DNA of 64,000 nucleotides, from assembly GCF_007754425.1 (NCBI RefSeq), contig NZ_CP037452.1, forward strand, positions 3,943,164-4,007,163. The letters are read 5' to 3'. Below are positions 36,701 to 56,971 of the stretch, piece by piece. Below the pieces are notes generated by a model that was not told the DNA's origin, ran no database searches, and saw nothing but the letters and a program-made list of their open reading frames with translations. Each line of letters begins with the position of its first letter. Positions within the stretch are counted from its first letter, which is position 1. The position numbers and the translations under genes were made by a program. The stretch comes from Gimesia fumaroli (lineage in GTDB: Bacteria; Planctomycetota; Planctomycetia; Planctomycetales; Planctomycetaceae).

Positions 36701-39700
36701 AACCTGGACACGACCATCAAGAGTCAGACCGGAACCGTCAGTCTCATAGCGGAAGATGACATTCTGCTGGGAAGCGTCGCGTTGATTGACTCCACTTCCG
36801 GGACAATCACTTTAACCGCTGACAATGCGGCAGGAAATAACGGTGATTCAATCACAATGACCGATGGATCTTTGATTGATGCCGGAACCGGTGACATTGG
36901 CCTCACAGCTGATGGAGATGTCCTTTTAGGTGGCCTGCTGACAACAGGTACCGTCAACATTGATTCTCTCTCAGCTTCAATCAGTGATAACGGAGACAGT
37001 TATACAGACATTGTGGCTACAACGGCAGTTCTTAATGCCGTGACCGGGATCGGCGATGGAAATCCACTGGAAACAGAAATCAGTACGCTCTCTGCTACGA
37101 TATCCGGCATTGGCAGCCTCTTCTTAGAAAATACGGGGACCGTTGAACTGCTTGATCTCTCCACCTTTGATGGTGAAATCAGCGTCAACGCCACAGGCAG
37201 CATCACGGCAACCTCAGTTGTCTCGACAAACAACTCAGCTAACGACGATCACGATATATCACTGACGGCGACAGGAACCAGTAGTGATATTCTAGTGACT
37301 ACAATTACTGCTGTTGGCAATGCAGATGTCACACTGACTGCCGATGACGGTATTCTCGATACCAATGGCGCCGATTTAAACTGGATTACCGCTGACAATT
37401 TGATGCTAACATCCAGCAGTGCAGATGGTACTCAGGATGGAATCGACGTCGACACCGATGTCAACTTACTCACCGCTAACGTGAATACAAACGCCGGTGG
37501 AATTCACATTGATGAAGTGGACGGCATTACCCTTTCGCAACTGATGACATTCGATGGATTTATTACCGTTTATGCTGCCGGTACCATAGAAGTCCTCGAC
37601 GTCAATTCCACGAACAACTCCGCTTCCGATATCAACAACGGTATCACACTGACTGCAACCGGCGCTGATAGCGACATCAATGTCACAACCTTAACAGCCC
37701 AGAACACCGCCGATATCACTTTGAATTCCGATCGTGATGTACTCGATTCTGACAGCACCGACATAAATATCACGACCGGCGATCAATTGACGATTGTTGC
37801 CGGACGTAATATCGGTGGCATCACCAGTATCTTTACCGAAGCTGGTTTTGATCCACTGCAGACAACAGTAGATCATCTCGACCTGACCAGTGGTAACAGC
37901 ATCGCCATCCACAATACAGGTACCTCGCCTGAATTGATCAATCTGGACGCAGGCACGGGCTCAGTGGGAACCACATTCATCAAAGTAACAGGTGGCGCAC
38001 TGGATGTCTCACTCACAACGGGAATTCACAATACACAGGACACCATCGGTTTTGTCTCCGATGTTTCGATCACTGTACCAACCGGATTGCAAACAGCAAA
38101 CCTGCGTCTGGATGCGCCTGATATCATCGATGCCGGCGGGGGAGACCTTGATATTAACGCCGTTGATGCAATTCTGTTTCAGTCAATGTCTGCAGAAACC
38201 GTTACGATCACAGCACAGCAGTTTGATGGTACCGCTACTGGCAGTGATTTTATTATTACCAACGACTCCCCTGCCCTGGAACTCGTCGACCTGAATACCG
38301 ATTCGATGGCTTTGACGGGAGGCACAGACACAAACATCTCGCTGACATCCGCCGGCGGTGTGACTGTTACGAATCTGGTACAGACATTGGGAACCGGTAC
38401 TCTATTCATCGAAACGACAAACACCGACGCCTACCTGATTCTGAATCAGAACATCCAAAGCGAGACAGGCAGTGTTACGATTGAAACCGCCGATGACATT
38501 GCCTTTAATGGTTCGAGTCACCTGACCAGCACTTCAGGTGATATTAAGTTGACTGCAGATGCCGACAATGGTGCCGGGGGACTGTTCGGTGGGGTTACAA
38601 TGGCCGATGGCACAGTCATCAATGCCGGTGATGGTACAGTCACACTGACAGCAACAGATGACATTACTATTGGCCAGGTCATCACAACTAACGCCACCGA
38701 CTTCGCGATTCATCTGGAAACGGAAGGGAGCGTAACCGACGCCGGAGACAATGCCGGCGAAGATCTAATCGCCAATGTGTCCGGCGCCCGGGTCACGATC
38801 ATTGCTGCTCTGGGAGCCGGTAAGGTCGCTGATTTGAATGGGGAAATCGAAACACAGGTCGATCAGATCAATATCACCAACCAGACCTCAGGCGAGATCC
38901 GAATCATTGAAACAGATGATGTGATCATTCACGATATCCTACAGACATCTGCGGGTGACATTCATGTTTTCGCCGGCGGCAACATCCTGTTGTCCGGTCT
39001 GATTGAAACAGCCGCCGACCATGTGCTGCTCGACTCCCAAGCTGCGATCACTGATCAAAACGACGGTATTCCGGGGCAGCTTAATATAAATGCGATGAGC
39101 CTGGGTCTGAACGCAGTTACTGGAATCGGCGTGGGAGACACTCTCGAGCTGAGTGTCGAATCTTTCTCAGCTGACACCACCGACGGCGACATCCTGCTTC
39201 ACAACACCGCCGGTAATTCTGTCACCGCCACCAGTATTACCACCGGAACCGGTAGTATTGCGCTGGCACAGATCGGCGACGAAGCATTAACCATCGACCT
39301 GGCAACCACTCAGGATGGAACTATTACCATTTCGAACGAAGGGGATGCGCACTCCGATATTCTGGAGCTGACCTCAATCTCGGCTGGTGGCGCGACTCCG
39401 GAAATCAATGTCTCTACCATTAACTTCGGAAACATTCTGCTCGGAGATCTCGCCGCGTTGGATGGAGTTATCTCGGTTATTTCAGCAGGAGATATCAATG
39501 ACGCGTTCAACGATCAGATGACTCCGGAAATCGATCTAAACGCCGCTTCCGGTTCGATTACACTGCAGGCAGTCAACGGAATCGGTAATAACCAGGCGGT
39601 AGAACTGGCCGGCGGAACCCTTTCCATTGATTCCGGAACAGGCAATATTGATGTTTCCAACACATCTTCAGCGGCAACGGGCTCTGTGCGGATCACACAA

Positions 39701-41973: not shown

Positions 41974-44900
41974 ATGAACGACATTCCAGACAAAGATCAA
42001 CGAAACGATGAATCGTCTGACGATGAGAATCCTCTCAACGATCAGACGCAATCCGATTTCGAATTTGATTCTGAAGACCACGCACCTGAAAATGATCAGA
42101 CCATCATTTCCGATCAATGGGAGTCTGAAACGATTTCTGCCGATGGGAATGAAATACCGGAAGATTCCAATTCTGAAGACATTTATCAGACCCAAAACGA
42201 TTCCGATTCGGAATTAGGGACCGCAGACGACTTCTCGTTAAACGATCAGACAATTGTCGAAGACAGTGCCTCAGAAGACATCAATGCTACTATCGTCGCC
42301 CCCGCAGCTGTGGACCTTGAGCGAACAATCACCGAGGAAGATCATGCGGAATGGGCCGGCGCGCAAACCATCAGTGAACTCCCTGAAGAAGAACGCCCTG
42401 AATCTGTAAACGACCAGACTCTAGTGCTCGACGAGTCTGAAAACGCTTCCGAGATTGGTGCAACTTTAGTTGAAGACCACAATACACCGCAGGAAATAGA
42501 CGCCACAATTGTCTCTGATGATGTCCCTCCGGAATTGGTGGCCACAATGAATTCGGCCTGGGGTGATGGCATGGCCACGATGCCCGAAGGCCCGGAGATG
42601 ACCATCAAAGCCGATGATATTCCGGGTGAAGATCTGACAAACCAGACATCACTGGTCATTAAAAAACGTGACTTCAGTGATAAAACAAAGTCGGAATATT
42701 TGAATAACGCCGAATACGAGCTCCTGGAAGTGCTTGGCCAGGGTGGTATGGGCGTTGTCTATACTGCACGGCAGACTTCGATCGACCGCCAGGTTGCGGT
42801 CAAAATGCTGAAGAGTAAAACAGCTAAGAATCGAGATCAGCGACACAAATTTCTTGCAGAAGCAGTTGTCACCGGGGAATTGGACCATCCCAATATCGTT
42901 CCCATTTATGACGTGGGTAGCAATAACAGCGGTGCATTGTATTACTCGATGAAAAAGGTTGAAGGCCGCCCGTGGTTGAAGACGATTCGTAAGAATTCAC
43001 TCGCCGAGAATTTAAATATCCTGATGAAAGTCGCTGACGCCGTTGCGTTTGCCCACTCTCGCAGTGTTGTCCACCGCGATTTAAAACCAGAAAACGTAAT
43101 GCTCGGTGAGTTCGGTGAAGTACTGGTAATGGACTGGGGACTGGCCCAGTCAACATCTGGATTTCGCAAGTCCAACAGTATTATCACCACATCCAGCATG
43201 GGGGGCACTCCTGCTTACATGGCGCCGGAAATGGCAACCGGTCCCGTCGATAAAATTTCGCCACTTTCTGATGTGTACCTCTTAGGTGCGATCCTGTACG
43301 AAATCCTTACAGGTCGTCCGCCACACACAGGCAAAACGGCCATGAAATGCCTGATGGCGGCGGCGAAGAATGAAATTGTCCCCACTGGGAAAAAAGGGGA
43401 ACTTGTTGATATCGCCATGAAAGCCATGGCTACACAACAAAAGGACCGCTACCCCAGCGTGCAGGCGTTGCAACAAGCCATCATGGAGTACCAGTCTCAT
43501 TCGGAAAGTATTTCGCTCGCCACAAGAGCACATTCCGATTTAAAAGGAGCAAAAGCAACAGAAAATTATGAACTGTTTTCACGGGCTTTATTTGGGTTCC
43601 AGGAAGCTCTTTCACTTTGGCCTGAAAACCACGCCGCAAAAGCAGGTGCAGAGAAAACAACGCTGAGCTATGCCAGTACGGCCTATTCGAAAGGTGACTT
43701 TGACCTCGGTCTGTCCTTACTTAGTGAAAAAGATCCGGCACACACGGAGCTCATTGAACAAATTCGCTCAGCACAGACAGAACGAGATGCACGACAACAA
43801 AGGCTTCGCACAGCAAAACGGGTCTTCGTCGGTATGTTGGCAACCGTTTTGGTAGTCGTCACTGGAGCCTTCTTCTGGATTCGAGCTGAAGCAAATCGCG
43901 CCTTGAAAGCAGAAGAAGTCGCGGAAACAGAACGCGACACCGCGATTGAGGAACGTAAGAAAGCCGATGCAGCACGGGCTCAGGAATCAATTGCTCTCCA
44001 AAAAGCAGTTGTGTCTGAAAAGAAAGCCATCGCAGAAAAAGAGAAAGCTGAAGAAGCGCAACGACAGGAAGTAGTCGCACGCCAGAAAGAAATAATCGCA
44101 CGCCAAAAAGCTGTTAAATCTGAAAAAGAAGCGATTACTGCCAAAGAAAAAGAAGAATATGAAGCTTATATAGCTCGTATCGGTCTGGCTGCAGCCAAGA
44201 TCGATGAAAATGCATTCGAAAGCGCCATCCAGTTACTCAATGGGTGTCCCGAAGAACTTCGTAACTGGGAATGGGGACGTCTGATGCACCTTTGTTCGCA
44301 AAGTAGCAGGACATTCAATGCAAAAGCGCCGGTTGATGCTTTAGCTGTCTCAAATGATGGATCTCATTTTGTGACGGGGGGGAAAGACGGTTTTGCACGG
44401 CTCTGGGATCGAGCCAGCGGAAAAATGCTTGCCCAGTTTGATCACAACAAAAACCCGGTACTCGCGGTTGCCTTGAGTCCTGATGGTAAAACCCTCGCGA
44501 CAGGCAGCGAAGACCGAAAAGGCTTTATCAAACTTTGGGACCTGGAAACACATTTGCAAATCCAGCGTACCTTTCAGGACCCCCAACAAAAAATGCCATT
44601 TGATAAAGGTCACACCGAAGGCATCTTGAGTATCAGTTATTCAAAAGATGGCACACGGCTGTTAACCAGTTCCTATGATAAAACCGCACGGCTCTGGGAT
44701 GTTGCTTCCGGCCAACAGTTGAGACGATTCTGGGGGCATAACTGGTGGGTCTGGGATGCAAATTTCTCAACGGATGAACGCCGCATCGTTACCGCCAGCC
44801 AGGATGGAACTGCTGTCATCTGGTCCGTAGAAACCGGTAAACAGGGCGCCCCCTTCACCGGTCATCAAGGCCCGGTCTACTCTGCTCACTTCTCTCCTGA

Positions 44901-47127
44901 CGACAACAGCACCCACGTCGTGACCAGTGGCTACGATCGCCGTGTTCTGTTATGGAAACCGGAAGACATCGTTCCATACGATTTTAACAAAATCGTTTCA
45001 GGTAAGAAAAATGAACCGCCCCCGTTTATCGCTTTCGACGGACATCAGGAAAGTGTTCAATCTGCCGAGTTCACGCCCGATGGCACAATGATCATCTCCG
45101 CCAGCCACGATAACACTGTGAAGCTCTGGGACATTGAAACGACAAAAGCCCTGAAAACATTGCGGGGGCATGATAGTTGGGTTCAGGCAGCCACCTTGCT
45201 GAAGGATGGCAAATGGATTCTCTCCGCCAGTCATGATGCCCGGCTAAAATTATGGAACATCGCTGACTATGAAGAAATTCGAACCCTGAAAGGCAGAGTT
45301 CTCGCAAAACATGTCGATGCGATTCTGGACGTTTCCTTTTCGAAAGACGGAACACAACTGGTTACTGCCAGCCGCGATAAAACCGCCATTTCCTGGAATG
45401 TCGCAACCGGTAAGCCTCAAATTGAATTCACCGAAGGGCATGCCTTCCTGGCATCAAACGCGGTCTTTCTACCGGATCATAAGCGTCTGGCAACAGCCGC
45501 CGTCGACAATTCCGTACGCATCTGGGACATTCAGACGGGGACAGAGCACAAGCGATTCGAACACACCGGTCGCAGCGCTGCTATTGATGTCTCTTCTGAT
45601 TCACGTTTCCTGCTGACAGGCAGCGATAAAAAAACAGTCCGCCTCTGGAATATCGAAACGGGAAAATTAATTCGAGAATTGACGGGCCACCGATCTGAAG
45701 TCAGTGCAGTCGCCTTTTCTCCCGATCTGCGTTTCTGTGCCAGCGGAGATGCCCGGGGCCGATGTATGCTCTGGGAAGTTGCTACCGGAAAATTGCTGCA
45801 TCAGCTGGAAGGTCACACTCGAAGAATATCTGTTCTCAAATTTCTCCCCGATAGGAAAACGCTTCTTTCAGCCAGCGGTGATAACACCGTCGGTAACTGG
45901 AATATTACAACTGGTAAAGAAAACCGAAAACAGATCCTGAAACATCCAGATGCGATTCTGTCCATGGATGTATTTGCAAATGGAAAACAGGCCGTCACCA
46001 GCTGTGCCGATGGTTTGGTCAGAATCTGGGATCTTAGCAAACCTGAAGTCGTACAGACCATCAAACCAGCAAATGGCCTAATTAACTCGGTCAGTATTTC
46101 GCACGATAATAAGCGATTACTCACTGCCAACGTTCAACAGCGGGTGATTCAGGTCTGGTCCGTTGATTCGGGAAAAGAGTTGCTGGTCCCCGGTAAAAAC
46201 GGTAAACTAAATCCATTTCTCGATTTCAAAAAACAGGGTGGAATGTTATGGACGGCCATCTTTTCCCCGTATCACGACTCGATCTTAACAGTAGGTGGTC
46301 GGGATGCCCGACTCTGGAACGGCATGACCGCCAAACAGATCATGGCATTCCACCCGCACGGCGTTGTTGCTTCCGCCTCCTTCTCGCCGGACGGAAATTG
46401 GCTCGTCACAGGCAGTTGGGATAACTCTGCAAAAATTTGGAACACGAAAACGGGACATGCAGAAAAGAAACTGGAACAGAAACATCAGGGGTATGTTAAC
46501 ACCGTACGTTATTCCCCCAATGGAAAACAGATTCTAACTGCCAGTGATGATGGAACAGCAAAGCTCTGGGACGCCAACAGTGGCGCGGTTCTATTAACAC
46601 TCGAACTCCCGGATACACATGTCAAAAGCGCCATCTTTTCTCCCGATGGTTCACAGATCGTTACCGCATCCGATGATAAAACACTCGTATTGTGGGATGC
46701 CAAAACAGGTCAGAAAAAGAACACGTTTAAAGGACATGCCTGGCCTGTCCTCGAAGTCGCCTATTCGCATGATGGAAAACATCTGATTTCCGGCTCCGAA
46801 GATAACAGTGCCATCATCTGGGAGATTGCTACTCAAAAGAAAACGGTCCTCGCCGGTCACACGGCACCTGTTGCTTCTGTGGTATTTTCTCCAGACGACA
46901 GTCGCGCATTCACAGCCAGTGAAGATGGTACTGCAAAGCTCTGGGATGCGGAAACAGGGAAAGAAATCCTCACTCTCAGCAGTCACACACAAGGAGTCAC
47001 TTCCGTCGATTTCTCACCCAACGGCCGATACGTTGCGACCGGGAGTCAAGATGGGCAGGCAATTTTATGGCTCACCGTCGACTGGAAAAATAAGAACGCA
47101 GCGCAGATGGCGATCTCAAATCGTTAA
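41974..47127 (+). CDS. Transmembrane Ser/Thr protein kinase with 21 WD40 repeats
   Basis: 1,717 residues. Residues 1-240 are acidic and carry an array of Thr motifs (see findings). The Hanks-type kinase domain is at ~248-510: P-loop GQGGMG 255-260, Lys277 in VAVK, HRD 367-369, DWG 387-389 in place of DFG (seen in some bacterial kinases), and the APE motif in YMAPEMA. A TPR-like stretch follows (~515-600), one membrane helix (~616-637, RVFVGMLATVLVVVTGAFFW), a charged coiled coil (~640-745), the WEWGRL motif common before such propellers (~763), and 21 WD40 units to the end, enough for three seven-bladed propellers. The kinase should be cytoplasmic and the WD40 part on the other side of the membrane. 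It lies 128 nt after the giant gene and its end overlaps the next convergent gene by 4 nt. Confidence 0.93.
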   Translation: MNDIPDKDQRNDESSDDENPLNDQTQSDFEFDSEDHAPENDQTIISDQWESETISADGNEIPEDSNSEDIYQTQNDSDSELGTADDFSLNDQTIVEDSASEDINATIVAPAAVDLERTITEEDHAEWAGAQTISELPEEERPESVNDQTLVLDESENASEIGATLVEDHNTPQEIDATIVSDDVPPELVATMNSAWGDGMATMPEGPEMTIKADDIPGEDLTNQTSLVIKKRDFSDKTKSEYLNNAEYELLEVLGQGGMGVVYTARQTSIDRQVAVKMLKSKTAKNRDQRHKFLAEAVVTGELDHPNIVPIYDVGSNNSGALYYSMKKVEGRPWLKTIRKNSLAENLNILMKVADAVAFAHSRSVVHRDLKPENVMLGEFGEVLVMDWGLAQSTSGFRKSNSIITTSSMGGTPAYMAPEMATGPVDKISPLSDVYLLGAILYEILTGRPPHTGKTAMKCLMAAAKNEIVPTGKKGELVDIAMKAMATQQKDRYPSVQALQQAIMEYQSHSESISLATRAHSDLKGAKATENYELFSRALFGFQEALSLWPENHAAKAGAEKTTLSYASTAYSKGDFDLGLSLLSEKDPAHTELIEQIRSAQTERDARQQRLRTAKRVFVGMLATVLVVVTGAFFWIRAEANRALKAEEVAETERDTAIEERKKADAARAQESIALQKAVVSEKKAIAEKEKAEEAQRQEVVARQKEIIARQKAVKSEKEAITAKEKEEYEAYIARIGLAAAKIDENAFESAIQLLNGCPEELRNWEWGRLMHLCSQSSRTFNAKAPVDALAVSNDGSHFVTGGKDGFARLWDRASGKMLAQFDHNKNPVLAVALSPDGKTLATGSEDRKGFIKLWDLETHLQIQRTFQDPQQKMPFDKGHTEGILSISYSKDGTRLLTSSYDKTARLWDVASGQQLRRFWGHNWWVWDANFSTDERRIVTASQDGTAVIWSVETGKQGAPFTGHQGPVYSAHFSPDDNSTHVVTSGYDRRVLLWKPEDIVPYDFNKIVSGKKNEPPPFIAFDGHQESVQSAEFTPDGTMIISASHDNTVKLWDIETTKALKTLRGHDSWVQAATLLKDGKWILSASHDARLKLWNIADYEEIRTLKGRVLAKHVDAILDVSFSKDGTQLVTASRDKTAISWNVATGKPQIEFTEGHAFLASNAVFLPDHKRLATAAVDNSVRIWDIQTGTEHKRFEHTGRSAAIDVSSDSRFLLTGSDKKTVRLWNIETGKLIRELTGHRSEVSAVAFSPDLRFCASGDARGRCMLWEVATGKLLHQLEGHTRRISVLKFLPDRKTLLSASGDNTVGNWNITTGKENRKQILKHPDAILSMDVFANGKQAVTSCADGLVRIWDLSKPEVVQTIKPANGLINSVSISHDNKRLLTANVQQRVIQVWSVDSGKELLVPGKNGKLNPFLDFKKQGGMLWTAIFSPYHDSILTVGGRDARLWNGMTAKQIMAFHPHGVVASASFSPDGNWLVTGSWDNSAKIWNTKTGHAEKKLEQKHQGYVNTVRYSPNGKQILTASDDGTAKLWDANSGAVLLTLELPDTHVKSAIFSPDGSQIVTASDDKTLVLWDAKTGQKKNTFKGHAWPVLEVAYSHDGKHLISGSEDNSAIIWEIATQKKTVLAGHTAPVASVVFSPDDSRAFTASEDGTAKLWDAETGKEILTLSSHTQGVTSVDFSPNGRYVATGSQDGQAILWLTVDWKNKNAAQMAISNR

Positions 47128-48047: not shown

Positions 48048-48680
48048 ATGAATGAAATATCGACAACATTTCAGGAAAGCAACCGCTGCATGGAATCAAT
48101 AAATACTGAACCGGTCACGATGCTGGTGACGGCTCATCCCGCTCCCGGAAACGAGGAAGAATGGAAACAGACTCTAACCAGTACCATCCAGGCATCCCTT
48201 AAATTTCCTGGCCATATGGGAACGACCGTTCTCAAACAAAAGTCCAACTCGAAGCCGACCTACCAGATTATCCTGCGTTTTGACAAACAGGAAAACCTCG
48301 ATAACTGGAAGAGCTCACCCGAGCGCGAGCACTGGATTTCTCGTTTGCACGCACTGGAACATTGCCCGCCTGCGATCACGCATAACACAGGCCTGGAAAC
48401 CTGGTTTGAATTCTCCCATCACGACGACCAGCATTCGGCGGTTCATCCTCCCAAATACAAGATAGCAATCATCGTCTGGATTGCTGTTTACGTGTCGATC
48501 ATTCCCATCATTAATGTGATACGTCCCTTCACCAACGAACTGCACTTTCTGATTGGTAGTGCCATCACAACGACGATCACGGTCCCGCTGATGACTTGGG
48601 TGATGATTCCCGCTTTAAGCTGGTTACTGCAAAACTGGCTTTACCCAACGACTGTTAGTAAACCTGAAGACAACAGCTAG
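48048..48680 (+). CDS. ABM-domain membrane protein
   Basis: The N-terminal half (residues ~20-120) is an antibiotic-biosynthesis-monooxygenase-type ferredoxin-like fold (VTMLVTAHPAPGNEEEW, TYQIILRFDKQENLDNW, TWFEF). The C-terminal half has two membrane helices (~140-165, ~172-198; PLMTWVMIPALSWLLQNWL). This resembles COG3224 proteins, which have no proven enzyme activity. The catalytic role is unclear. It is convergent with the sulfur operon with 257 bp between. Confidence 0.7.
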   Translation: MNEISTTFQESNRCMESINTEPVTMLVTAHPAPGNEEEWKQTLTSTIQASLKFPGHMGTTVLKQKSNSKPTYQIILRFDKQENLDNWKSSPEREHWISRLHALEHCPPAITHNTGLETWFEFSHHDDQHSAVHPPKYKIAIIVWIAVYVSIIPIINVIRPFTNELHFLIGSAITTTITVPLMTWVMIPALSWLLQNWLYPTTVSKPEDNS

Positions 48681-48937
48681 TGCTTTGTCAAGCTAGAAAT
48701 TGAGGGTGGGGTGTGTTGTGTTGTTTACGTGCTCCGTTGTCGCACTCTCGTGATATCCATTAACCCAAAATTAAAAAATGACACTCCACTAGTCAGTTCA
48801 AATTCGACGTTAAGCGCTACACCCGTTCTAATCTACCAAGCTAGCGGCCCCAACTCATTCGGGAAATCACACTGATGACTCAAAGTCGCCTTTCACGTAA
48901 AGGAATAATCGAAGCATCAATTACTAGATGGGGATTG

Positions 48938-49759
48938 TTACCATTCATAAACACCCATTCGATCTGATTTTGGTAAGTGGTCCTTCAGCACAAATCGAGG
49001 ACGCGAATGTGAATTGACATAGGCGGCAATATCGAGAGCATCCTGTTCTGTCATATTTGCATCATCTGGAGGCATCGCAACTTTCAGCCAAGCGGCTAAC
49101 TTCTCATTTCGGCTGAAGCCGGCACCCGCGTTATACGATTTCTCTCCCCACACGGGAGGCCCTTCTTCTGTCCCCTCTCCCGTTATTCCATGACAGTCTG
49201 CACATTGGCTTTGATAAAGCCCTTTTCCTCGTGGCGCATTAGCCTGCTCCGGTTTGAGCTTGAGCGGTCGCACGTGGTTAGGACCCAGCGGTTTCAGGGG
49301 ATTCATCTTCAAAAGGCTGCCGGTTGAAAGCCAAGTAATATAGGCACTAATCGCAATGGAAACTTTGCTACCCTTCGGCGGCCGAATTCCATTCTGGCTT
49401 CTCATGAAACAGTTCAAAATGCGATCTTCCAAAGTAATCACCCGTTTCTCTCGCGGCGACCATGCTGGATACGCGGCAGCGGTCCCCAAAAAACTGGCTG
49501 CATAAGGAACCGTACCCGCCATGAGATGACAGGAACTGCAAGACAAAGCATTTCCGACATACGGCTTGGATAACGGATGTGTGTCCGTCTTCTCGACAAG
49601 CTCTCGCCCCAGTTTGATGATTTCCCCCAATTCCCCCGGAGGATACGTCGCAGGAATGGAAGCAACTTTCTTCTGATCCGATTTTTGAGCAGCCAGGTTC
49701 GCAACCAGAATGCCACATACTAAAATACTACCAGCGAAAATGAGCTGTTTGAATCGCAA
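48938..49759 (-). CDS. TsdA-like dihaem cytochrome c (thiosulfate dehydrogenase family)
   Basis: Exported c-type cytochrome with haem motifs CSSCH (Cys74-His78) and CADCH (Cys186-His190). The block PYVGNALSCSSCHLMAGT, then LEDRILNCFMRSQNG, is the TsdA signature, including the Cys (Cys117) that ligates haem 1 in TsdA. TsdA interconverts thiosulfate and tetrathionate in the periplasm; direction here cannot be read. TTG start with AGGAG six nt upstream. Last gene of the six-gene sulfur operon, 41 nt after the DsrE-type gene. Confidence 0.8.
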   Translation of the reverse strand: MRFKQLIFAGSILVCGILVANLAAQKSDQKKVASIPATYPPGELGEIIKLGRELVEKTDTHPLSKPYVGNALSCSSCHLMAGTVPYAASFLGTAAAYPAWSPREKRVITLEDRILNCFMRSQNGIRPPKGSKVSIAISAYITWLSTGSLLKMNPLKPLGPNHVRPLKLKPEQANAPRGKGLYQSQCADCHGITGEGTEEGPPVWGEKSYNAGAGFSRNEKLAAWLKVAMPPDDANMTEQDALDIAAYVNSHSRPRFVLKDHLPKSDRMGVYEW

Positions 49760-49800
49760 TCTTTTCTCCTCGCCTCATCCGGATCGATTTACCTGATTTC

Positions 49801-50826
49801 TTACTTCAACAGAGGAACGTACGCATAACCATCTGTCTGCAGGTTGACGAGCGATGTTAGTGCGGAAACGGCCACGTCCGTAAAGACGACCACTTCTGTC
49901 GGCTTCCCACCTTTACTAACCAATGATTGACCGCAGACATAAATTTCAACACCTGCTTCATGCAGTTCGTGTAATAACTCCAAGTTCGGATTCCCTTCGG
50001 TCTCAAAACGCTGGGAGTAGACATCGTCGTTCAATACACAAAGCGTGGCATCACCATGCAGAACGATCGCAATCTGTACGGTGGCAGGTGATTTGCCGGC
50101 TCCCTGATAGATGTTAAGGTAACGGGCCACTTTCTCAATCCCGGGGTTCAGCTTGTTGGCCTCGCCTCCTTTGGTCAGATCAACACAAATCTTGCTTTCA
50201 TCGCGAGGTTGCTGTGCTGCATCCGGAAGAGGAACGACTTTTCCATATTGTTTAATCACCGGATTGAGGTACTTTATCTTTTCAGCCTGAGACGTCTGCT
50301 TCAAATTAGGAACTGGGTGATTCTTCATGGCTTCCGGAAAACCGCGTTTGACAAATCCGGAGACGGCTTTTGCATGTGCTTTAATCAACTGAGCAACATA
50401 TGGATTGGCAGAAGTTTCTGTCACACGTACCCCATTGGCTGTTTTTTCATACGACATCTTAATCTGATCCGCGTGTTTGAAGAGTTCTGCAAAGAGCGGA
50501 TCACGCATCCGGATTGGCTCTTTCTTTTCAATTCGCTCTTTCATCCAGTACACATGCTCTTTGATTTTCGCAGCGACCTGAGGATCGCTCGATTCAGTAA
50601 GCGTTTTCACGCCATTCGGCAGTTCTTCAACCGTTCGCTTGATTTTCTGATGATTCATCAACAGGAAACGAAAGTCCTGATGGTCTCGATCATGGGCTTG
50701 CCCTTGCCCGTGTCCCCCTCTTCCCCGTCCGGGACCGCGCCCCGGCCCCCGTTGGGCCAGGGCTGTGCCTGCGACCACACAAACGAGAAGCAATACCATT
50801 CCATTTCGTAGAGATCGTACTTTCAT
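49801..50826 (-). CDS. Exported DsrE-family protein with duplicated N-terminal domain
   Basis: Signal peptide (residues 1-24, TALAQ), then a Gly/Arg-rich stretch. Residues ~52-99 and ~112-159 are two copies of one unit: H-x2-I ... NGV-x2-T-x-[TS]-x2-[DN]P-x-VA-x2-IK-x-H, with His59/His91 and His118/His151. The C-terminal half (~195-341) is a DsrE-like fold (IAIVLHGDATLCVL, AGVEIYVCGQSL) with the conserved Cys298. DsrE proteins carry sulfur on this Cys and are normally cytoplasmic; an exported form is unusual. It is flanked by sulfide:quinone oxidoreductase and the TsdA-like cytochrome. Confidence 0.75.
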   Translation of the reverse strand: MKVRSLRNGMVLLLVCVVAGTALAQRGPGRGPGRGRGGHGQGQAHDRDHQDFRFLLMNHQKIKRTVEELPNGVKTLTESSDPQVAAKIKEHVYWMKERIEKKEPIRMRDPLFAELFKHADQIKMSYEKTANGVRVTETSANPYVAQLIKAHAKAVSGFVKRGFPEAMKNHPVPNLKQTSQAEKIKYLNPVIKQYGKVVPLPDAAQQPRDESKICVDLTKGGEANKLNPGIEKVARYLNIYQGAGKSPATVQIAIVLHGDATLCVLNDDVYSQRFETEGNPNLELLHELHEAGVEIYVCGQSLVSKGGKPTEVVVFTDVAVSALTSLVNLQTDGYAYVPLLK

Positions 50827-50892
50827 TTTCTCATTACCTTCACGTTATTTTTATGTTGAGTGATTCTAGTTTCGGTTCTTTAAAGCAATCGT

Positions 50893-52143
50893 TCAGGCAC
50901 GTCCTTTTAACATACCTTTCCAGTAGAGAATGGGTAAAAGATACTTTTTTACAATCCACATGCTCCACCGTTCTTTGGCTTGGCTGAATGGAAAGGTTTC
51001 TGCTGGATTTTTGTCATAGTCAAATTCTGCAAGTACCAGCTTTCCATAACCTGTTACCAGCGGGCATGATGTATAACCGTCATACTTCGCAGTGAGCGGT
51101 TTTCCCGCAATTAATGACTGCAGGTTCTTGACCAATGCAGGTGACTGCTTCCGAATCGCAGCTGCTGTTTTGGACGTCGGCAGATTACTGCTGTCACCCA
51201 GTGCAAATACATTGGAATAACGCACGTGCTGTAGCGTATATTTATCAACATCGACCCAGCCTTTTTCATCCGCCAGAGGGCTCTTCGCAATAAATTCCGG
51301 AGGCCCCATCGGAGGTGTCACATGAATCATGTCATAGTGAATTGAGACTTCGTCACCTGTTTCGGTATTCCGGAAGATCGCTTCCTTCGTGTCGGCACTA
51401 ATGGCAACCAGACTATGATTAAATCGCGTATCAATTTCCTTGCGTTTAATCACACCCTCCAAAACATTCCGATATCGCTCAACGGCAAAGATGGTATTAC
51501 TTCCGGATGCGAAAATGACATGTGTTTTATCCCGCACGCCACTTTTTCGAAAATAGTCGTCGGCCAGATAACAGATTTTCTGTGGTGCACCACCACACTT
51601 AATTCCCGTTACAGGCTGGGTAAAAATGGCCGTTCCTCCTTGGAAGTTTCGGATATTTTCCCATGTACTACCGACAGTCTCAAAAGAGTAATTACTACAG
51701 ACTCCGTCTTTTCCGAGACTGTCCTTCAAGCCAGTGATGGCATCCCAATTGATTTGAATGCCGGCACAAACCACCAGAAAGTCATATTGAATTGTGCGCC
51801 CGTCTCGCGTTTTAACCCGATTTTTCTCTGGATCAAATTCAACGACAGCATCCTGAATCCAGGTTGCATTCTTCGGAATCACAGAAGCTTCATCGCGACG
51901 CGTGGCTTCTTTGCGATAGGTCCCGCCCCCCACCAGGGTCCAGGCAGGTTGATAATAATGATTGTCAGCGGGATCAATAATGGCAACGTCGGTCTCGTTA
52001 AACCAGCCCTTAGTCAATTTCGCTGCCACGGTAATACCCGCGGCTCCTCCCCCCACAATTACCACTTGATGATGCAGTACCGAATCAGGACTTTCTTGAG
52101 CCGGACTGCTTTGAACAGATTGATCGATGGTTTCTGAAATCAT
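50893..52143 (-). CDS. sqr: Sulfide:quinone oxidoreductase, type II-like
   Basis: FAD enzyme that oxidises sulfide to persulfide or polysulfide and passes electrons to quinone. The FAD site is VVIVGGGAAGITVAAKLTK (residues 27-45). The redox cysteines are Cys183 (IKCGGAPQKI) and Cys360 (YTSCPLVTGYG), 177 apart, almost the spacing of mitochondrial SQOR (201/379). The C-terminus (WIVKKYLLPILYWKGMLKG) is a membrane-associating helix as in this type. GGGAG lies seven nt before the ATG, which overlaps the upstream gene's stop as ATGA. Confidence 0.9.
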   Translation of the reverse strand: MISETIDQSVQSSPAQESPDSVLHHQVVIVGGGAAGITVAAKLTKGWFNETDVAIIDPADNHYYQPAWTLVGGGTYRKEATRRDEASVIPKNATWIQDAVVEFDPEKNRVKTRDGRTIQYDFLVVCAGIQINWDAITGLKDSLGKDGVCSNYSFETVGSTWENIRNFQGGTAIFTQPVTGIKCGGAPQKICYLADDYFRKSGVRDKTHVIFASGSNTIFAVERYRNVLEGVIKRKEIDTRFNHSLVAISADTKEAIFRNTETGDEVSIHYDMIHVTPPMGPPEFIAKSPLADEKGWVDVDKYTLQHVRYSNVFALGDSSNLPTSKTAAAIRKQSPALVKNLQSLIAGKPLTAKYDGYTSCPLVTGYGKLVLAEFDYDKNPAETFPFSQAKERWSMWIVKKYLLPILYWKGMLKGRA

Positions 52144-52364
52144 TTGATATCTCCCGTTTGCGAAACGTCCGATCCTGTCATTCCATCAGATTGAACTGAT
52201 TCAAGATCGGAATTCACATTGCAATGATGAGAACGCGACTTGGTATGTGAATCGATGTGACATAGTCCACTCAGGCATGTCTTCATCCCAAACCGAGGCA
52301 GCACCCACACGTTGAGAACGAACCACACTGCCAGTATTGTCAGTAAAACCGTAATGTCAGTCAT
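52140..52364 (-). CDS. Small membrane protein with Cys pair (74 aa)
   Basis: One N-terminal membrane helix (residues 4-22, TDITVLLTILAVWFVLNVW) followed by LPRFGMKTCLSGLCH with Cys30 and Cys35, then a polar tail with a few His. AGGA lies six nt before the ATG. It is coupled by an ATGA overlap to sqr and follows the persulfide dioxygenase gene by 13 nt. No known family; the context suggests a sulfur or redox partner of SQR. Confidence 0.7.
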   Translation of the reverse strand: MTDITVLLTILAVWFVLNVWVLPRFGMKTCLSGLCHIDSHTKSRSHHCNVNSDLESVQSDGMTGSDVSQTGDIK

Positions 52365-52377
52365 GCTTACTTCCTTA

Positions 52378-53823
52378 TCAACACGTTGAATTTCCTGCTA
52401 TTCCGCACGTAACGGTTTCATTCGACGTTGCCGCCAGTCCGGCCTCTTTCCAGACCTGAAAACCGCCTGCCAGATTGATCACATCAAAGCCAGCATTCTG
52501 GAAAATACTAGCTGCAATTGCTGAACGAGCCGAACTTTGGCACTGTACGACCACAGGTAGACTGGTATCGATGTCAGACAATTGATCAAGCAGATGCCCC
52601 AGGAAATGGTGTTCGGCTTGAGGGATGTGGCTGGCATTCCATTCAGAGTCCGATCTCACATCAATCAATCTGACATCCCCTGATTCAATACGCGGAGACA
52701 GTTCCCTGGGGGACTCCGATTTATAACTTTCCGAAGCCAGCCCGGCCGCTCGCACTTTCGTTTTCTCAAATACGCCTTGCACCTGATCAATGCCAATCTT
52801 GTGCAACACGCGCATCGCTTCAGAAAGCTGTGATTCAATGGCAATCAAATAGACAGTCCGCTCATAGTCGACGAGCCAGCCAGCCCATGCAGCCAGCATC
52901 GAAAGGGGAATGTTAATCGTCCCTGGTACATGTGCCTCTGCGAACTCAGCGGAGGGAGAAAGGTCAAGCACCAGACTGTCGTTGACAATCGCGGAAAGTT
53001 GCTCGGTATCAAGGAAGTCAGGCAATTTTGTTTCTCCCAGAACCTGGGGACCTTCTTTGTTGACGCGTTTCATCACAGCAAAATACTTCGGTGCCTCCGG
53101 TTGGTCTGCCAGAATATATTGGACGAACGAACTTTCATCCTCAAACTGTAGGGCTGGGTTAAATCGTTTTTCATAACCCACTGTTGATGAGGGAATCGCT
53201 CCCAGGCCTTTTCCGCAAGCACTTCCTGCTCCGTGTGCAGGCCACACTTGCAGATAATCGGGCAATTGCTTGAAACGTTCAGCCGAGTGATATAGTTGAT
53301 GTGCGCCCGCTTCCGCACTCCCTTGAATCCCGGCCGCTTCTTCCAATAGATCCGGACGACCGATCGAACCAACAAAGACGAAGTCGCCTGTGAAGATTCC
53401 CATTGGCTCGTCTGCCCCGCCCCCTTGATCTGTCAGCAGAAACGAAATACTTTCAGGAGTATGTCCAGGAGTGTGCAAGACTTCGAATTTGATATTTCCG
53501 ATCTCAAACACATCACCCTCTTTGACTAGCTGCGAATCATAATTCGATGCATATTGATACTTCCATTCTGCAGGCCCTTCGTCAGACAGGTACAATTTCG
53601 CACCAACTCGATCTGCCAGTTCGCGTGCACCGGAAACATAGTCGGCATGAATATGAGTCTCTGCTACCGCGGTCAGTTTCAGCCCTTCAAGTTGCGCCAT
53701 TTCCAGGTATTGCTCAACATCTCGGCCGGGGTCAACGATAACTGCTTCCTTTGTTTTCTGACAACCCACCAGGTAGGATGCATGTGCCAGCTTTTGGTCA
53801 TAGAAATATTTCAGCAACATCAT
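52378..53823 (-). CDS. CstB-like persulfide dioxygenase-rhodanese fusion
   Basis: N-terminal beta-lactamase-fold persulfide dioxygenase (1-~245): ETHIHADYVSG with His57, His59, Asp61; HTPGHTPES with His121; Asp147; His197 in PAHGAGSACGKGLG, where Cys203 matches the CstB active-site Cys. Then a rhodanese-homology domain (~283-365) with no catalytic Cys at the expected spot, and an active rhodanese (~375-465) with Cys428 in VQCQSSARS. This order equals Staphylococcus aureus CstB, which turns persulfides to thiosulfate. Substrate range here is inferred from that. Confidence 0.88.
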   Translation of the reverse strand: MMLLKYFYDQKLAHASYLVGCQKTKEAVIVDPGRDVEQYLEMAQLEGLKLTAVAETHIHADYVSGARELADRVGAKLYLSDEGPAEWKYQYASNYDSQLVKEGDVFEIGNIKFEVLHTPGHTPESISFLLTDQGGGADEPMGIFTGDFVFVGSIGRPDLLEEAAGIQGSAEAGAHQLYHSAERFKQLPDYLQVWPAHGAGSACGKGLGAIPSSTVGYEKRFNPALQFEDESSFVQYILADQPEAPKYFAVMKRVNKEGPQVLGETKLPDFLDTEQLSAIVNDSLVLDLSPSAEFAEAHVPGTINIPLSMLAAWAGWLVDYERTVYLIAIESQLSEAMRVLHKIGIDQVQGVFEKTKVRAAGLASESYKSESPRELSPRIESGDVRLIDVRSDSEWNASHIPQAEHHFLGHLLDQLSDIDTSLPVVVQCQSSARSAIAASIFQNAGFDVINLAGGFQVWKEAGLAATSNETVTCGIAGNSTC

Positions 53824-53831
53824 GTTTCCCC

Positions 53832-54695
53832 TTAAATTATGTGTGGACTGATTTTGAAATCAGCATCATTCATTGAATTGACATTTATTTCCGTCACGGT
53901 ATGTGTTTTTGTTGAAACCAGTTTGCTCCCCTCATGAAAAATCACAAAGCCACCGAGCAAAACCAGGAATCCGGCAAAGACGGTCCTTAACACCTGTTGA
54001 TTCATTCGTGCATTAATCTTGCGACCGATGATACTGCCGACAATCCCAACAGAAGTGAAGACCAGAATCGTTTGCCAGTTCACCGTCATTTCATGTGCCA
54101 GCAGAAAATGTTCGTATTTGGCAAAACCGACAGCAGCATTGATAATGATGATCACCAGACTCGTCCCAATGGCCAGCCGCATTGGCAACTTTCCCAAGAT
54201 GACCAGAGCCGGAACGATCAAAAAACCACCACCTACCCCAACAAAACCAGTCACAGTACCCACAACAACCCCTTCGAGCATGACTTGCCAGGCTGGTGCC
54301 CGGTGAATAGGCCCATCAGTGTCCCCTGCAGTAACTCCAGAGCCTTTCGATCGGCGAAACATCACGTAAGCTGCAGCTAATAAAACACTCCCGAACACAA
54401 CAAGCTGTAACGCTTCCGCAGCCAGACCACCCAACCAGGCACCGAAGAATGTTCCCACCATGCCCGGTAGACCAAAACAGGCCACACTCCGCCAGTCAAT
54501 CTGTTTTGCATTTGCATAAGGAACCGCGGCGGCTATAGAAATCAAACCCACAATCGCCATCGATTCTGCAATCGACTCTTTGGCACCGTGCCCTACCAGA
54601 TAGACCAATATTGGCACCGTAATCGCAGACCCACCAGATCCCAGAAGGCCGAGCGTAATACCAATCAGCATTGAACCAATCAAGATCGTTATCAT
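53832..54695 (-). CDS. TauE/SafE-family sulfite/sulfonate exporter
   Basis: 287 residues, about eight membrane helices, with the two duplicated TauE/SafE halves (GLLGSGGSAITVPILVYL at the start; GFVGVGGGFLIVPALVILG in the second half). The family exports sulfite or small sulfonates. First gene of the sulfur operon, 8 nt before the CstB-like gene. It would carry the sulfite made in the oxidation of persulfide out of the cell. Confidence 0.85.
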   Translation of the reverse strand: MITILIGSMLIGITLGLLGSGGSAITVPILVYLVGHGAKESIAESMAIVGLISIAAAVPYANAKQIDWRSVACFGLPGMVGTFFGAWLGGLAAEALQLVVFGSVLLAAAYVMFRRSKGSGVTAGDTDGPIHRAPAWQVMLEGVVVGTVTGFVGVGGGFLIVPALVILGKLPMRLAIGTSLVIIIINAAVGFAKYEHFLLAHEMTVNWQTILVFTSVGIVGSIIGRKINARMNQQVLRTVFAGFLVLLGGFVIFHEGSKLVSTKTHTVTEINVNSMNDADFKISPHII

Positions 54696-54789
54696 TCCGT
54701 TGTTCCACTATATTGAAATACCGAATACCCGCTTCAATCAAAGCCGAGCAATCATTCAAATATTCCTGTGTTTCAGATGTCTCATCCAC

Positions 54790-54817
54790 ATTATATCGCA
54801 ACTTCGCGACATAACAA
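54790..54817 (-). promoter_or_regulatory. Sulfur operon promoter with inverted repeat in the spacer
   Basis: On the minus strand: TTGTTA at 54812-54817, 16-nt spacer, perfect TATAAT at 54790-54795. The spacer holds TCGC-N6-GCGA (plus-strand TATCGC 54794-54799 and GCGACA 54806-54811), a plausible repressor site. About 90 nt upstream of the first gene, the exporter. Confidence 0.65.
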
Positions 54818-54962
54818 TATGTATTTGCATACAAACTTAATTTCAGAAGTTTGGCTGGAACTGAGAAATCAACAATTGAGCAGAACACTCGCCGGAAACG
54901 TCAGGAAGGCGATTCAGAAAACTTGTGTCGCAACAAGTGATAAGTGCATAGACCTATAGAGC

Positions 54963-55787
54963 TTACGGCGAAACTTGTTTCGGAATTCCCATCAAAAGTT
55001 GCTCACTATTGGCATAAGCGGAACGGGAAGCTTTTTGAAACCGGTCCTTTCCAGTGTGACTTTTGAACTCTTTGGACACTTGGATTATCTGTCGATAGGC
55101 CTGCAGAGCTGCTTCAAGATCCTGTTGACGTTCGCAGGCTAAAGCCAGGGTTTTCAAGTTATGTAGCAGCTTGGCGTGGAGTTGAGAGTTTTCATGATCC
55201 CGGTTTGCGAGACTCTGTCGAATTTCGATGCACTGACTGGCGTAGTCACGTGCCTCTTCATTTTTTTCCAGTCTCAAATAGCAGTCAGCCACATGTTGAT
55301 GCCCGAAACTGAGTTCCCATTGCACCTTTTCATTATTCGGGGCATACTTTGCAGATGACTCCGCCAGACTCAGGGATTCCAGATGCAGAGAGAGTGCCCC
55401 GTTAAGGTTTCCCAGCCGTTCAAGTAAGTGTTTCAAGATCACGCAACAAAAGCCCACAAGTACGTGGTCATTTTCGACTTGACTACCTGGTGTCTCTGGA
55501 CATGATGATGCGGAGATAAAGTCGCGCGCGTGAGAGAACACTACTGGTTCAGTTGACGTTTCGGAACCACTATGAAAACCAGCACCATAAAACCCGCTTG
55601 TTTCAGCCACATTTTCAAAACCACTGCTCCCTTGCACCTCAGTTATCAAACGACATCGCATCGCTTCATTCCGCATTCCCAGAACTTGAGAAAGCCATCC
55701 CAGGAGTTCACAAGACGTTTGCTGAGAAAATAAACGACTCTCTATTGACTCAACCACGCTGTTAACAATGATCTTCTTCACAAACAT
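54963..55787 (-). CDS. TPR-containing protein, start uncertain
   Basis: The C-terminal ~150 residues form TPR-like helices (LSFGHQHVADCYLRLEKNEE, ARDYASQCIEIRQSLANRD, LKTLALACERQQDLEAALQA). The N-terminal part has no recognisable domain. The frame is open to 55973; I chose the Met codon at 55787 because the upstream part reads as non-coding, but there is no good Shine-Dalgarno. TPR ends of this kind occur at the C-terminus of planctomycete Ser/Thr kinases, so this may be a remnant. It lies just upstream of the sulfur operon promoter on the same strand. Confidence 0.45.
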   Translation of the reverse strand: MFVKKIIVNSVVESIESRLFSQQTSCELLGWLSQVLGMRNEAMRCRLITEVQGSSGFENVAETSGFYGAGFHSGSETSTEPVVFSHARDFISASSCPETPGSQVENDHVLVGFCCVILKHLLERLGNLNGALSLHLESLSLAESSAKYAPNNEKVQWELSFGHQHVADCYLRLEKNEEARDYASQCIEIRQSLANRDHENSQLHAKLLHNLKTLALACERQQDLEAALQAYRQIIQVSKEFKSHTGKDRFQKASRSAYANSEQLLMGIPKQVSP

Positions 55788-56464: not shown

Positions 56465-56971
56465 ATGGACAAGGACTTCATCGACCATTTAATCAGTCAA
56501 TGGAAATCCGAACGACCGGATCTCGACGCCACGCCGATGGCGGTCGTCGGTCGCATTTTGAGGCTGTCAACGCACCTGGATCGACGTGTTAATGAAGTCT
56601 TGAAACCGTTCGGCCTGGCACTATGGGGGTTCGATATTCTGGCAACACTCCGTCGCTCCGGCAGTCCCTACGCCATGACACCTACCGAACTAATGGATGC
56701 CGTGATGCTCTCATCAGGTGCCATGACAAACCGCATTGATCGTCTGGAGCAACTCGATTTCGTTGAACGCAAGCCCTCGCCCAGCGACCGCCGCTCTCTT
56801 CAAGTGAAGCTCACCAAACGGGGACGAAAAATCATCGACGATGCTATAGCGGCTCGCTTTGCGGAAGCAGACCAGGCCCAGACTAGCCTGAAAAAACAGG
56901 ATCGCAAACAGCTCGCGGACCTGTTGCGAACTCTATTACATAATCTGGATCACAAAGACGAAACACCTTAA
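56465..56971 (+). CDS. MarR-family transcriptional regulator
   Basis: 168 residues with the MarR winged helix: MTPTELMDAVMLSSGAMTNR as helix-turn-helix (~80-100), IDRLEQLDFVERKPSPSDRR as recognition and wing (~100-120, with the D-x-R wing motif). MarR proteins repress nearby genes and are released by small phenolic or oxidised ligands. The VOC-family gene follows after 14 nt, and the palindrome upstream suggests auto-regulation. Confidence 0.9.
   Translation: MDKDFIDHLISQWKSERPDLDATPMAVVGRILRLSTHLDRRVNEVLKPFGLALWGFDILATLRRSGSPYAMTPTELMDAVMLSSGAMTNRIDRLEQLDFVERKPSPSDRRSLQVKLTKRGRKIIDDAIAARFAEADQAQTSLKKQDRKQLADLLRTLLHNLDHKDETP

Follow-up and report, generated by a model that had tools for sequence, protein, structure and literature searches.

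The window analysed here is a whole stretch of 64,000 nt from the genome of Gimesia fumaroli, a single contig of 7.70 Mb, and our subject is a set of six genes on its minus strand (54695-48938) that look like an operon-like, switchable unit for oxidising toxic sulfide. In the order of transcription, these genes encode a TauE/SafE-type exporter, a CstB-type persulfide dioxygenase (PDO)-rhodanese, a 74-aa one-helix protein, a sulfide:quinone oxidoreductase (SQR), an exported DsrE fusion, and a TsdA-type dihaem cytochrome. An earlier note, made from the sequence alone, had reported six same-strand genes with gaps of -4 to 66 nt, and all six are found on the minus strand as listed below, with 8 nt between TauE and CstB, 13 nt between CstB and the small open reading frame (ORF), a 4-nt overlap of the small ORF with SQR, 66 nt between SQR and DsrE, and 41 nt between DsrE and TsdA. 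The G+C content of the operon is 47-49%, and that of the window ranges from 44 to 53%.

53832..54695, minus strand: tauE, gene 1, a TauE/SafE-type exporter (PF01925, 160.6 bits), also first in the loci of the genus
52378..53823, minus strand: cstB-like gene, 481 aa, PDO - pseudo-rhodanese - rhodanese, a full-length match to 3tp9 and 3r2u
52140..52364, minus strand: small ORF, 74 aa by translation, found at this position across the genus loci, its stop overlapping the SQR start
50893..52143, minus strand: sqr, a human-SQOR-type sulfide:quinone oxidoreductase (430.8 bits to SQOR chains)
49801..50826, minus strand: exported DsrE fusion, with a signal-peptide-like start, a Gly-rich linker, an N-terminal domain, and a C-terminal DsrE domain with C298
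50302..50691, minus strand: N-terminal domain of the DsrE fusion (residues 46-175), a predicted tandem alpha-beta-beta-alpha repeat with invariant H91, M95, and H151
48938..49759, minus strand: tsdA-like gene with a TTG start, an exported dihaem cytochrome c with CSSCH at 74, C117 at the position of the Cys haem ligand, and CADCH at 186
54790..54817, minus strand: promoter-like site TTGTTA - 16 nt - TATAAT upstream of tauE, with 10/12 consensus positions
54793..54812, minus strand: operator candidate ATGTCGCGAAGTTGCGATAT (ATRTCG-N8-CGAYAT) between the -35 and -10 elements, kept in 9/9 aligned genus loci

The gene identities proposed in the earlier note are supported by family matches and alignments. 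The CstB-like protein gives profile hits to Lactamase_B and to two rhodanese stretches, and shows the three-domain architecture of CstB over its full length, with 487.7 bits to 3tp9 (residues 2-463) and 387.6 bits to 3r2u (residues 2-455), which we take to be S. aureus CstB. The H57/H59/D61 metal motif, C203 (in HGAGSxCGK), and the rhodanese C428 at the catalytic position are all in place, and the enzyme would convert persulfide into thiosulfate. SQR has a Pyr_redox_2 hit, and its alignment to human SQOR chains covers the SQOR-type FAD fold and both redox cysteines (C183, C360). The TsdA-like protein matches SoxA-TsdA_cyt-c (PF21342, 51 bits), carries a second haem domain, and aligns to 5lo9 (137.9 bits) and to TsdA 4wqd (127.4 bits), sharing the two CxxCH motifs, the Cys haem ligand, and a RILNCF stretch aligned to RIGDCF of 4wqd; its thiosulfate/tetrathionate activity is putative. 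The product of the small ORF consists of one hydrophobic helix followed by LPRFGxxTC...C, with a Cys spacing that varies across the genus loci, and has no match among Pfam or NCBIfam models. By eye, signal-peptide-like starts are present on the DsrE fusion and TsdA, and not on SQR or CstB. Regarding the thiol that would carry the persulfide, a genome search for BshC (bacillithiol) gave 0 matches, and one for GSH-S_ATP gave 3, but the latter model also matches Bacillus subtilis in the control set, so that these matches do not show glutathione. A search for sulfite oxidase (Oxidored_molyb) returned three matches.

The earlier note had also called an exported DsrE; this protein is indeed present, but the domain fused to it had been missed. 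The match to DsrE (PF02635, 57.4 bits, above cut-off) is confined to residues 220-337 of the fusion, whose AlphaFold model has a pLDDT of 93.4 and retrieves with Foldseek the DsrE-named entries 3mc3 and 2hy5_C together with similar folds. As expected for the DsrE family, a VCGQ-type cysteine, presumably the equivalent of DsrE Cys78, is present in 30/30 fusions. The N-terminal domain is predicted (pLDDT 96.1, pTM 0.88) to fold as a tandem alpha-beta-beta-alpha repeat with one invariant His per repeat, and its residues H46, M50, and H106 (H91, M95, and H151 of the protein) are invariant in 78/78 rows. No sequence relative of this domain was found in Pfam, NCBIfam, or PDB, and it is probably an undescribed domain, here fused to an exported DsrE. 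KEOPS subunits and the ArgR C-terminal domain were rejected as relatives, with middling fold-search matches only, and scattered weak Pfam/NCBIfam hits of single members of the domain family were discarded. ARIH1, the top PDB sequence match of the DsrE fusion, was taken as an artefact because the match covers the Gly-rich linker. A plasmid search with the fusion matched 76 records, none over more than 80% of the query, and the 20 of these 76 matches listed cover the DsrE half only.

The set behaves as a unit within the genus. We searched 17 Gimesia genomes (given by G numbers, and loci by L numbers), two of which are incomplete (G006, 76%; G016, 74%), with thresholds of E <= 1e-60 for SQR, E <= 1e-30 for TsdA, and at least 65% identity for a close CstB ortholog. 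Each of these three is present in the identical 12/17 genomes, and all three are missing from G002, G003, G004, G011, and G016, and therefore the set appears to have been gained or lost together. In 11 of these 12 genomes, a single contig carries SQR, DsrE, and TsdA within a stretch of ~5 kb; in G007, broken at contig ends, TsdA is on a different short contig. The earlier note had asked for a survey of the gene neighbourhood. Of the 11 genus regions around the DsrE fusion, nine contain the six genes in an identical order (with tauE truncated at the start of the contig in L014), whereas L019 and L023 hold the DsrE fusion only and L019 ends 0.5 kb upstream of it. The DsrE fusion itself is found in 14/17 genomes, namely the 12 plus G004 and G011. 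The lone fusion of these two genomes suggests a remnant or a precursor of the operon, because it adjoins glycine-zipper and kinase genes that are also near the operon in the window. In G002 and G003, the glycine-zipper and ABM genes stand side by side with no operon genes.

The operator candidate lies inside the best-scoring promoter-like site on its strand (48500-55200). Searched across the genome, the loose palindrome gives six sites and its reversed control 0, with about two loose sites expected by chance from base composition, and the strict form ATRTCGYRANNTNNCGAYAT gives four, again with 0 for the reversed control. The other two of the six loose sites, at C1:3208743 and at C1:3972691 (the latter within the window, in its giant ORF), were dropped by the strict pattern. 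One of the strict sites is at the operon, and two flank an ArsR gene (C1:6998180-6998488) located 3 Mb from the operon and followed by genes for a rhodanese and a second PDO-rhodanese. The last one (C1:2586054; L128:4055-8684) precedes genes for an RND efflux adaptor and pump, a possible regulon member that we regard as weak because no such pump was seen in five other genus loci (up to 1.5 kb on each side). Among the 17 genus genomes, the strict form occurs in 16, with 0 for the reversed control in all 17, and the genome devoid of the site is the one 74% complete. G002 and G003, which have no operon, keep strict sites at one locus only, read in G003 as ArsR-rhodanese-PDO, and in G004 and G011 the operator is found just upstream of the lone DsrE fusion (L036:8730-9915 and L047:268-1519). 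In 30 of the 52 distinct strict sites in the loci analysed, TTGACA directly adjoins the palindrome, so that the operator fills the spacer between -35 and -10. At L147, the site is beside a gene for a cytochrome-like lipoprotein.

These data also bear on whether the six genes share one transcript. A split, with tauE, cstB, the small ORF, and sqr as one unit, and dsrE and tsdA under promoters of their own, would agree with the 66- and 41-nt gaps, with the weak promoter-like sites inside the cluster, and with the lone dsrE under its own operator in G004 and G011. However, same-strand sites within the cluster reach 9/12 consensus positions at most, and the only strict operator of the operon is the one ahead of tauE, making this arrangement quite improbable in our view.

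Outside the genus, the motif was tested in two ways. In the first one, 98 genomes of the class, each at least 90% complete, were scanned with the motif alone; the strict pattern is present in 33/98, eight of which are Gimesia, and the reversed control in 2/98 (G045 and G062). Of the 25 non-Gimesia genomes with a site, 22 were read at one locus each. A rhodanese, PDO, CstB, TauE, or SQR gene lies beside the site in 21/22 and an ArsR gene in 19/22, L161 having neither an ArsR nor a persulfide gene. The second set comes from a single scan of genome contigs for the N-terminal domain of the DsrE fusion, which yielded 79 loci (1.09 Mb), some of them duplicating records of the genome set (e.g., L035 and G012), so that the counts are not fully independent. 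These loci contain 17 loose sites, in 14 loci, versus one for the control. ArsR homologs 62-82% identical to the Gimesia protein are encoded in 14/79 loci, and a palindrome lies at most 260 nt upstream of 14/14 of them (seven exact to the loose form, three with one mismatch, and four with two), compared with 89/2000 stretches drawn at random from these loci, without removal of real sites, that show a palindrome with up to two mismatches.

The likely regulator of the operon is this ArsR protein, acting in trans. The earlier note had stated that no CstR-type regulator gene is in the window, and none was seen among the six genes or the flanking ORFs scanned (45.5-58.5 kb), the part of the genome that was searched for CsoR; but the ArsR candidate in trans had been overlooked. 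A CsoR-type regulator was considered as well, and the operator led to ArsR instead. The other ArsR proteins found in the genome are 25-37% identical to the operator-linked one, whose C20, C50, C67, and C94 are invariant in 26/26 distinct homologs. Published sulfane-sulfur sensors of the ArsR family share two conserved cysteines, as far as the available parts of these papers describe them (PMC12423496, PMC10451225). In an alignment to E. coli YgaV (29% identity), the sensor through which the two-Cys comparison was made, these positions are Q34 and F100 in Gimesia, and the score against the NCBIfam BigR equivalog stays under its cut-off (49.8 vs 155 bits). The protein is thus linked to the same kind of target, would at most be a putative SqrR/BigR member, and probably represents a new subfamily. 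That it senses persulfide is suggested by the neighbours of its motif. Sensing of a thiophilic metal through its cysteines would be the alternative, and the score for NCBIfam HTH_metalloreg above cut-off (79.4 vs 55 bits), the strict site preceding the RND efflux pump, and the absent YgaV-type Cys pair all speak for it. Nevertheless, HTH_metalloreg models a broad ArsR/SmtB subfamily, and the neighbourhoods of 21/22 non-genus sites consist of persulfide genes instead of metal pumps, so we consider it unlikely that ArsR controls the operon in response to a metal.

The distribution of the N-terminal domain extends beyond the operon. Five of the 79 loci are labelled outside Planctomycetota (L037, Emcibacter; L071 and L082, Acidobacteriota; L109, Proteobacteria; L110, Acidithiobacillus), five are labelled 'bacterium' only, and the remainder are planctomycetes by label. 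Within 6 kb of the domain, PDO-rhodanese is found at 26 loci, TauE at 26, SQR (at least 50% identity) at 15, and TsdA at five. PDO, TauE, or SQR is within this distance at 33/79 loci, and 67/69 of these gene hits have the same orientation as the domain. The linkage holds in 27/67 groups after clustering 77 loci at 85% identity (L077 and L101, which have a stop inside the match, were excluded from the conservation and clustering counts), and in 20/41 loci flanked by 5 kb or more on each side. L037, from a metagenome-assembled genome labelled Emcibacter sp., combines the operator with TauE, SQR, and DsrE-fusion genes 64-78% like those of the window, and is possibly mislabelled or from a mixed bin. 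At L110:8019-10699, labelled Acidithiobacillus ferruginosus, the domain is a separate protein encoded between an MBL-fold (PDO-like) gene and a gene for a Pyr_redox_2 flavoprotein weakly like SQR. Other architectures include a fusion to a Tll0287-like domain (L097:9001-9858), Cys-rich tails after the domain (L067, L068, and L095, by eye), and a similar-looking C-terminal region in L062, L064, and L066, with no Pfam match for L062 and L064, the two scanned. Stand-alone copies of the domain with an apparent sensor kinase and response regulator as neighbours are seen by eye at L069, L070, L072, L080, L084, and L096, most of which also encode an exported protein that we take to be DUF2202-like.

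Putting these elements together, SQR would oxidise sulfide at the membrane, passing the electrons to quinone and the sulfane sulfur to a low-molecular-weight thiol, CstB would convert the resulting persulfide into sulfite, from which its rhodanese would make thiosulfate, and TauE would export sulfite or thiosulfate. Outside the inner membrane, TsdA would couple thiosulfate into tetrathionate and deliver the electrons to cytochrome c. The exported DsrE fusion may carry sulfane or thiosulfonate sulfur on C298, its N-terminal His-containing domain perhaps binding a metal, haem, or a partner. ArsR, in turn, would bind ATRTCG-N8-CGAYAT between -35 and -10 to repress the operon, itself, the adjacent rhodanese, and the second PDO, and persulfide would release it through the conserved cysteines. 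We judge it reasonably probable that the six genes form an inducible operon for sulfide/persulfide disposal that reaches into the periplasm and is repressed in trans by ArsR. The earlier note had proposed a pathway from sulfide to thiosulfate/sulfite outside the cell; the parts fit such a route, with a putative product and direction, and the exported TsdA suggests tetrathionate as a further product.

Several observations weigh against this interpretation. The motif was derived from the genus of the operon itself and, because it was drawn from Gimesia, its conservation there is descriptive and no independent test; 65/98 class genomes are devoid of the strict site, and near the operator, PDO is often represented by a paralog and not by CstB. 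The YgaV-type Cys pair is missing from ArsR, and the two longest gaps of the cluster leave room for internal promoters. TsdA is far from SQR in G017, G028, and G037, and G004 and G011 keep the DsrE fusion with neither SQR nor TsdA. As for the N-terminal domain, none of PDO, TauE, and SQR lies within 6 kb of it at 46/79 loci, some of them on short contigs. In addition, stand-alone copies adjoin an apparent sensor kinase and response regulator (by eye) and one neighbour is a multicopper oxidase, and therefore the domain is not sulfide-specific: it is linked to sulfur and not confined to it.

The purpose of the pathway may also be a different one. Since electrons go to quinone from SQR and normally to cytochrome c from TsdA, energy gain is likely as a by-product. 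Against energy conservation as the main role, the set could serve detoxification and persulfide homeostasis, burning off sulfide released from cysteine or from the breakdown of sulfated polymers while TsdA and DsrE mop up periplasmic thiosulfate or polysulfide. In agreement with this, two genomes devoid of SQR and TsdA also have the motif around persulfide genes (rhodanese, PDO), namely G003 and, judging from where its sites lie, G002. Moreover, the closest characterised clusters are detoxification systems, as is the case of S. aureus cst. The same applies to the B. licheniformis cluster, according to the available part of its description (PMC9918477). We give this role an even chance. A second alternative would have TsdA running backwards as a tetrathionate reductase, with the exported DsrE taking thiosulfonate from tetrathionate and oxidised sulfur acting as an electron sink. 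TsdA enzymes are known to work in both directions. The mention in the literature of a DsrE homologue trafficking thiosulfate also counts for this option (PMC13047784). On the contrary, an operon with both SQR and a PDO that uses oxygen argues for aerobic oxidation, and we find the reversed direction very improbable.

More tentatively, and with slightly less than even confidence, the disposal operon could be one member of a widespread persulfide regulon of Planctomycetes, under an undescribed four-Cys ArsR subfamily with a spacer-filling operator, in which the exported DsrE and His-repeat carrier of Gimesia would bind metal or haem and pass sulfur or electrons in the periplasm. To our knowledge, Planctomycetes, which are common heterotrophs, are not usually listed among sulfide oxidisers. 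A conserved operon that appears inducible, together with its likely regulator and operator, opens their sulfide metabolism to direct tests, a short DNA motif picks out persulfide genes elsewhere in the class, and both an exported domain family and an ArsR subfamily are indicated for which our searches returned no description.

Other genes of the window surround the operon. The largest is a single open frame of 5691 aa (24770-41845, plus strand), followed by a gene for a 1717-aa protein with a kinase domain and, by eye, WD40-like repeats (41974-47127, plus strand), a homolog of which is also encoded near the lone DsrE fusion in G004 and G011. An ABM-domain protein (48048-48680, plus strand) is convergent with tsdA and adjoins it in most operon-bearing regions of the genus. 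A gene for a MarR-family regulator (56465-56971, plus strand), followed by a glyoxalase-like gene, lies upstream of the operon and is oriented opposite to it.

In a literature search that covered few subscription papers, no recognisable description of the operon, domain, operator, or ArsR was found. The earlier note knew of no description of this gene combination in a planctomycete, and the literature searched gave none either, but PDO-rhodanese genes were already reported in Planctomycetes bins, a case of the same enzyme class in the same phylum, with no operon, domain, or regulator described in the available part of that paper (PMC7887784). The Gimesia ArsR resembles SqrR, BigR, SoxR, sHdrR, and YgaV in its family, its sulfur-gene targets, and its presumed repression, as these are presented in the accessible text of two reports (PMC12423496, PMC10451225), and differs from them in the absence of Cys at the two YgaV positions and the presence of four other invariant Cys. 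The yrkD-yrkEFHIJ-ydfQ-nreBC-sqr-pdo cluster of B. licheniformis, regulated by the CstR-like YrkD and by NreBC, likewise groups sulfur-regulated DsrE, rhodanese, PDO, TauE, and SQR genes; contrary to Gimesia, its DsrE (YrkE) comes with rhodanese and TusA homologs, and the part of the account available describes no TsdA (PMC9918477).

The cytochrome shares with TsdA/TsdBA (4wqd, 5lo9) the two haem motifs, the Cys ligand of the first haem, and the SxRxxRxxTLExRI stretch, whereas its place in an SQR-CstB operon beside an exported DsrE, known here from sequence, sets it apart. Similarly, the fusion has the PF02635 match, the fold found by Foldseek, and the VCGQ-type cysteine of DsrE/DsrF, but is exported and fused to a probably undescribed domain. 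The cst genes of S. aureus are tauE, cstR, cstA, cstB, and sqr, and both systems bring together TauE, a CstB-type PDO-rhodanese, and SQR under a sulfur-responsive repression, a putative one in Gimesia. In contrast to S. aureus, the Gimesia operon would rely on an ArsR in trans instead of a CsoR-type CstR encoded in the operon, has no CstA fusion, and adds TsdA and a DsrE that is exported and joined to the new domain.

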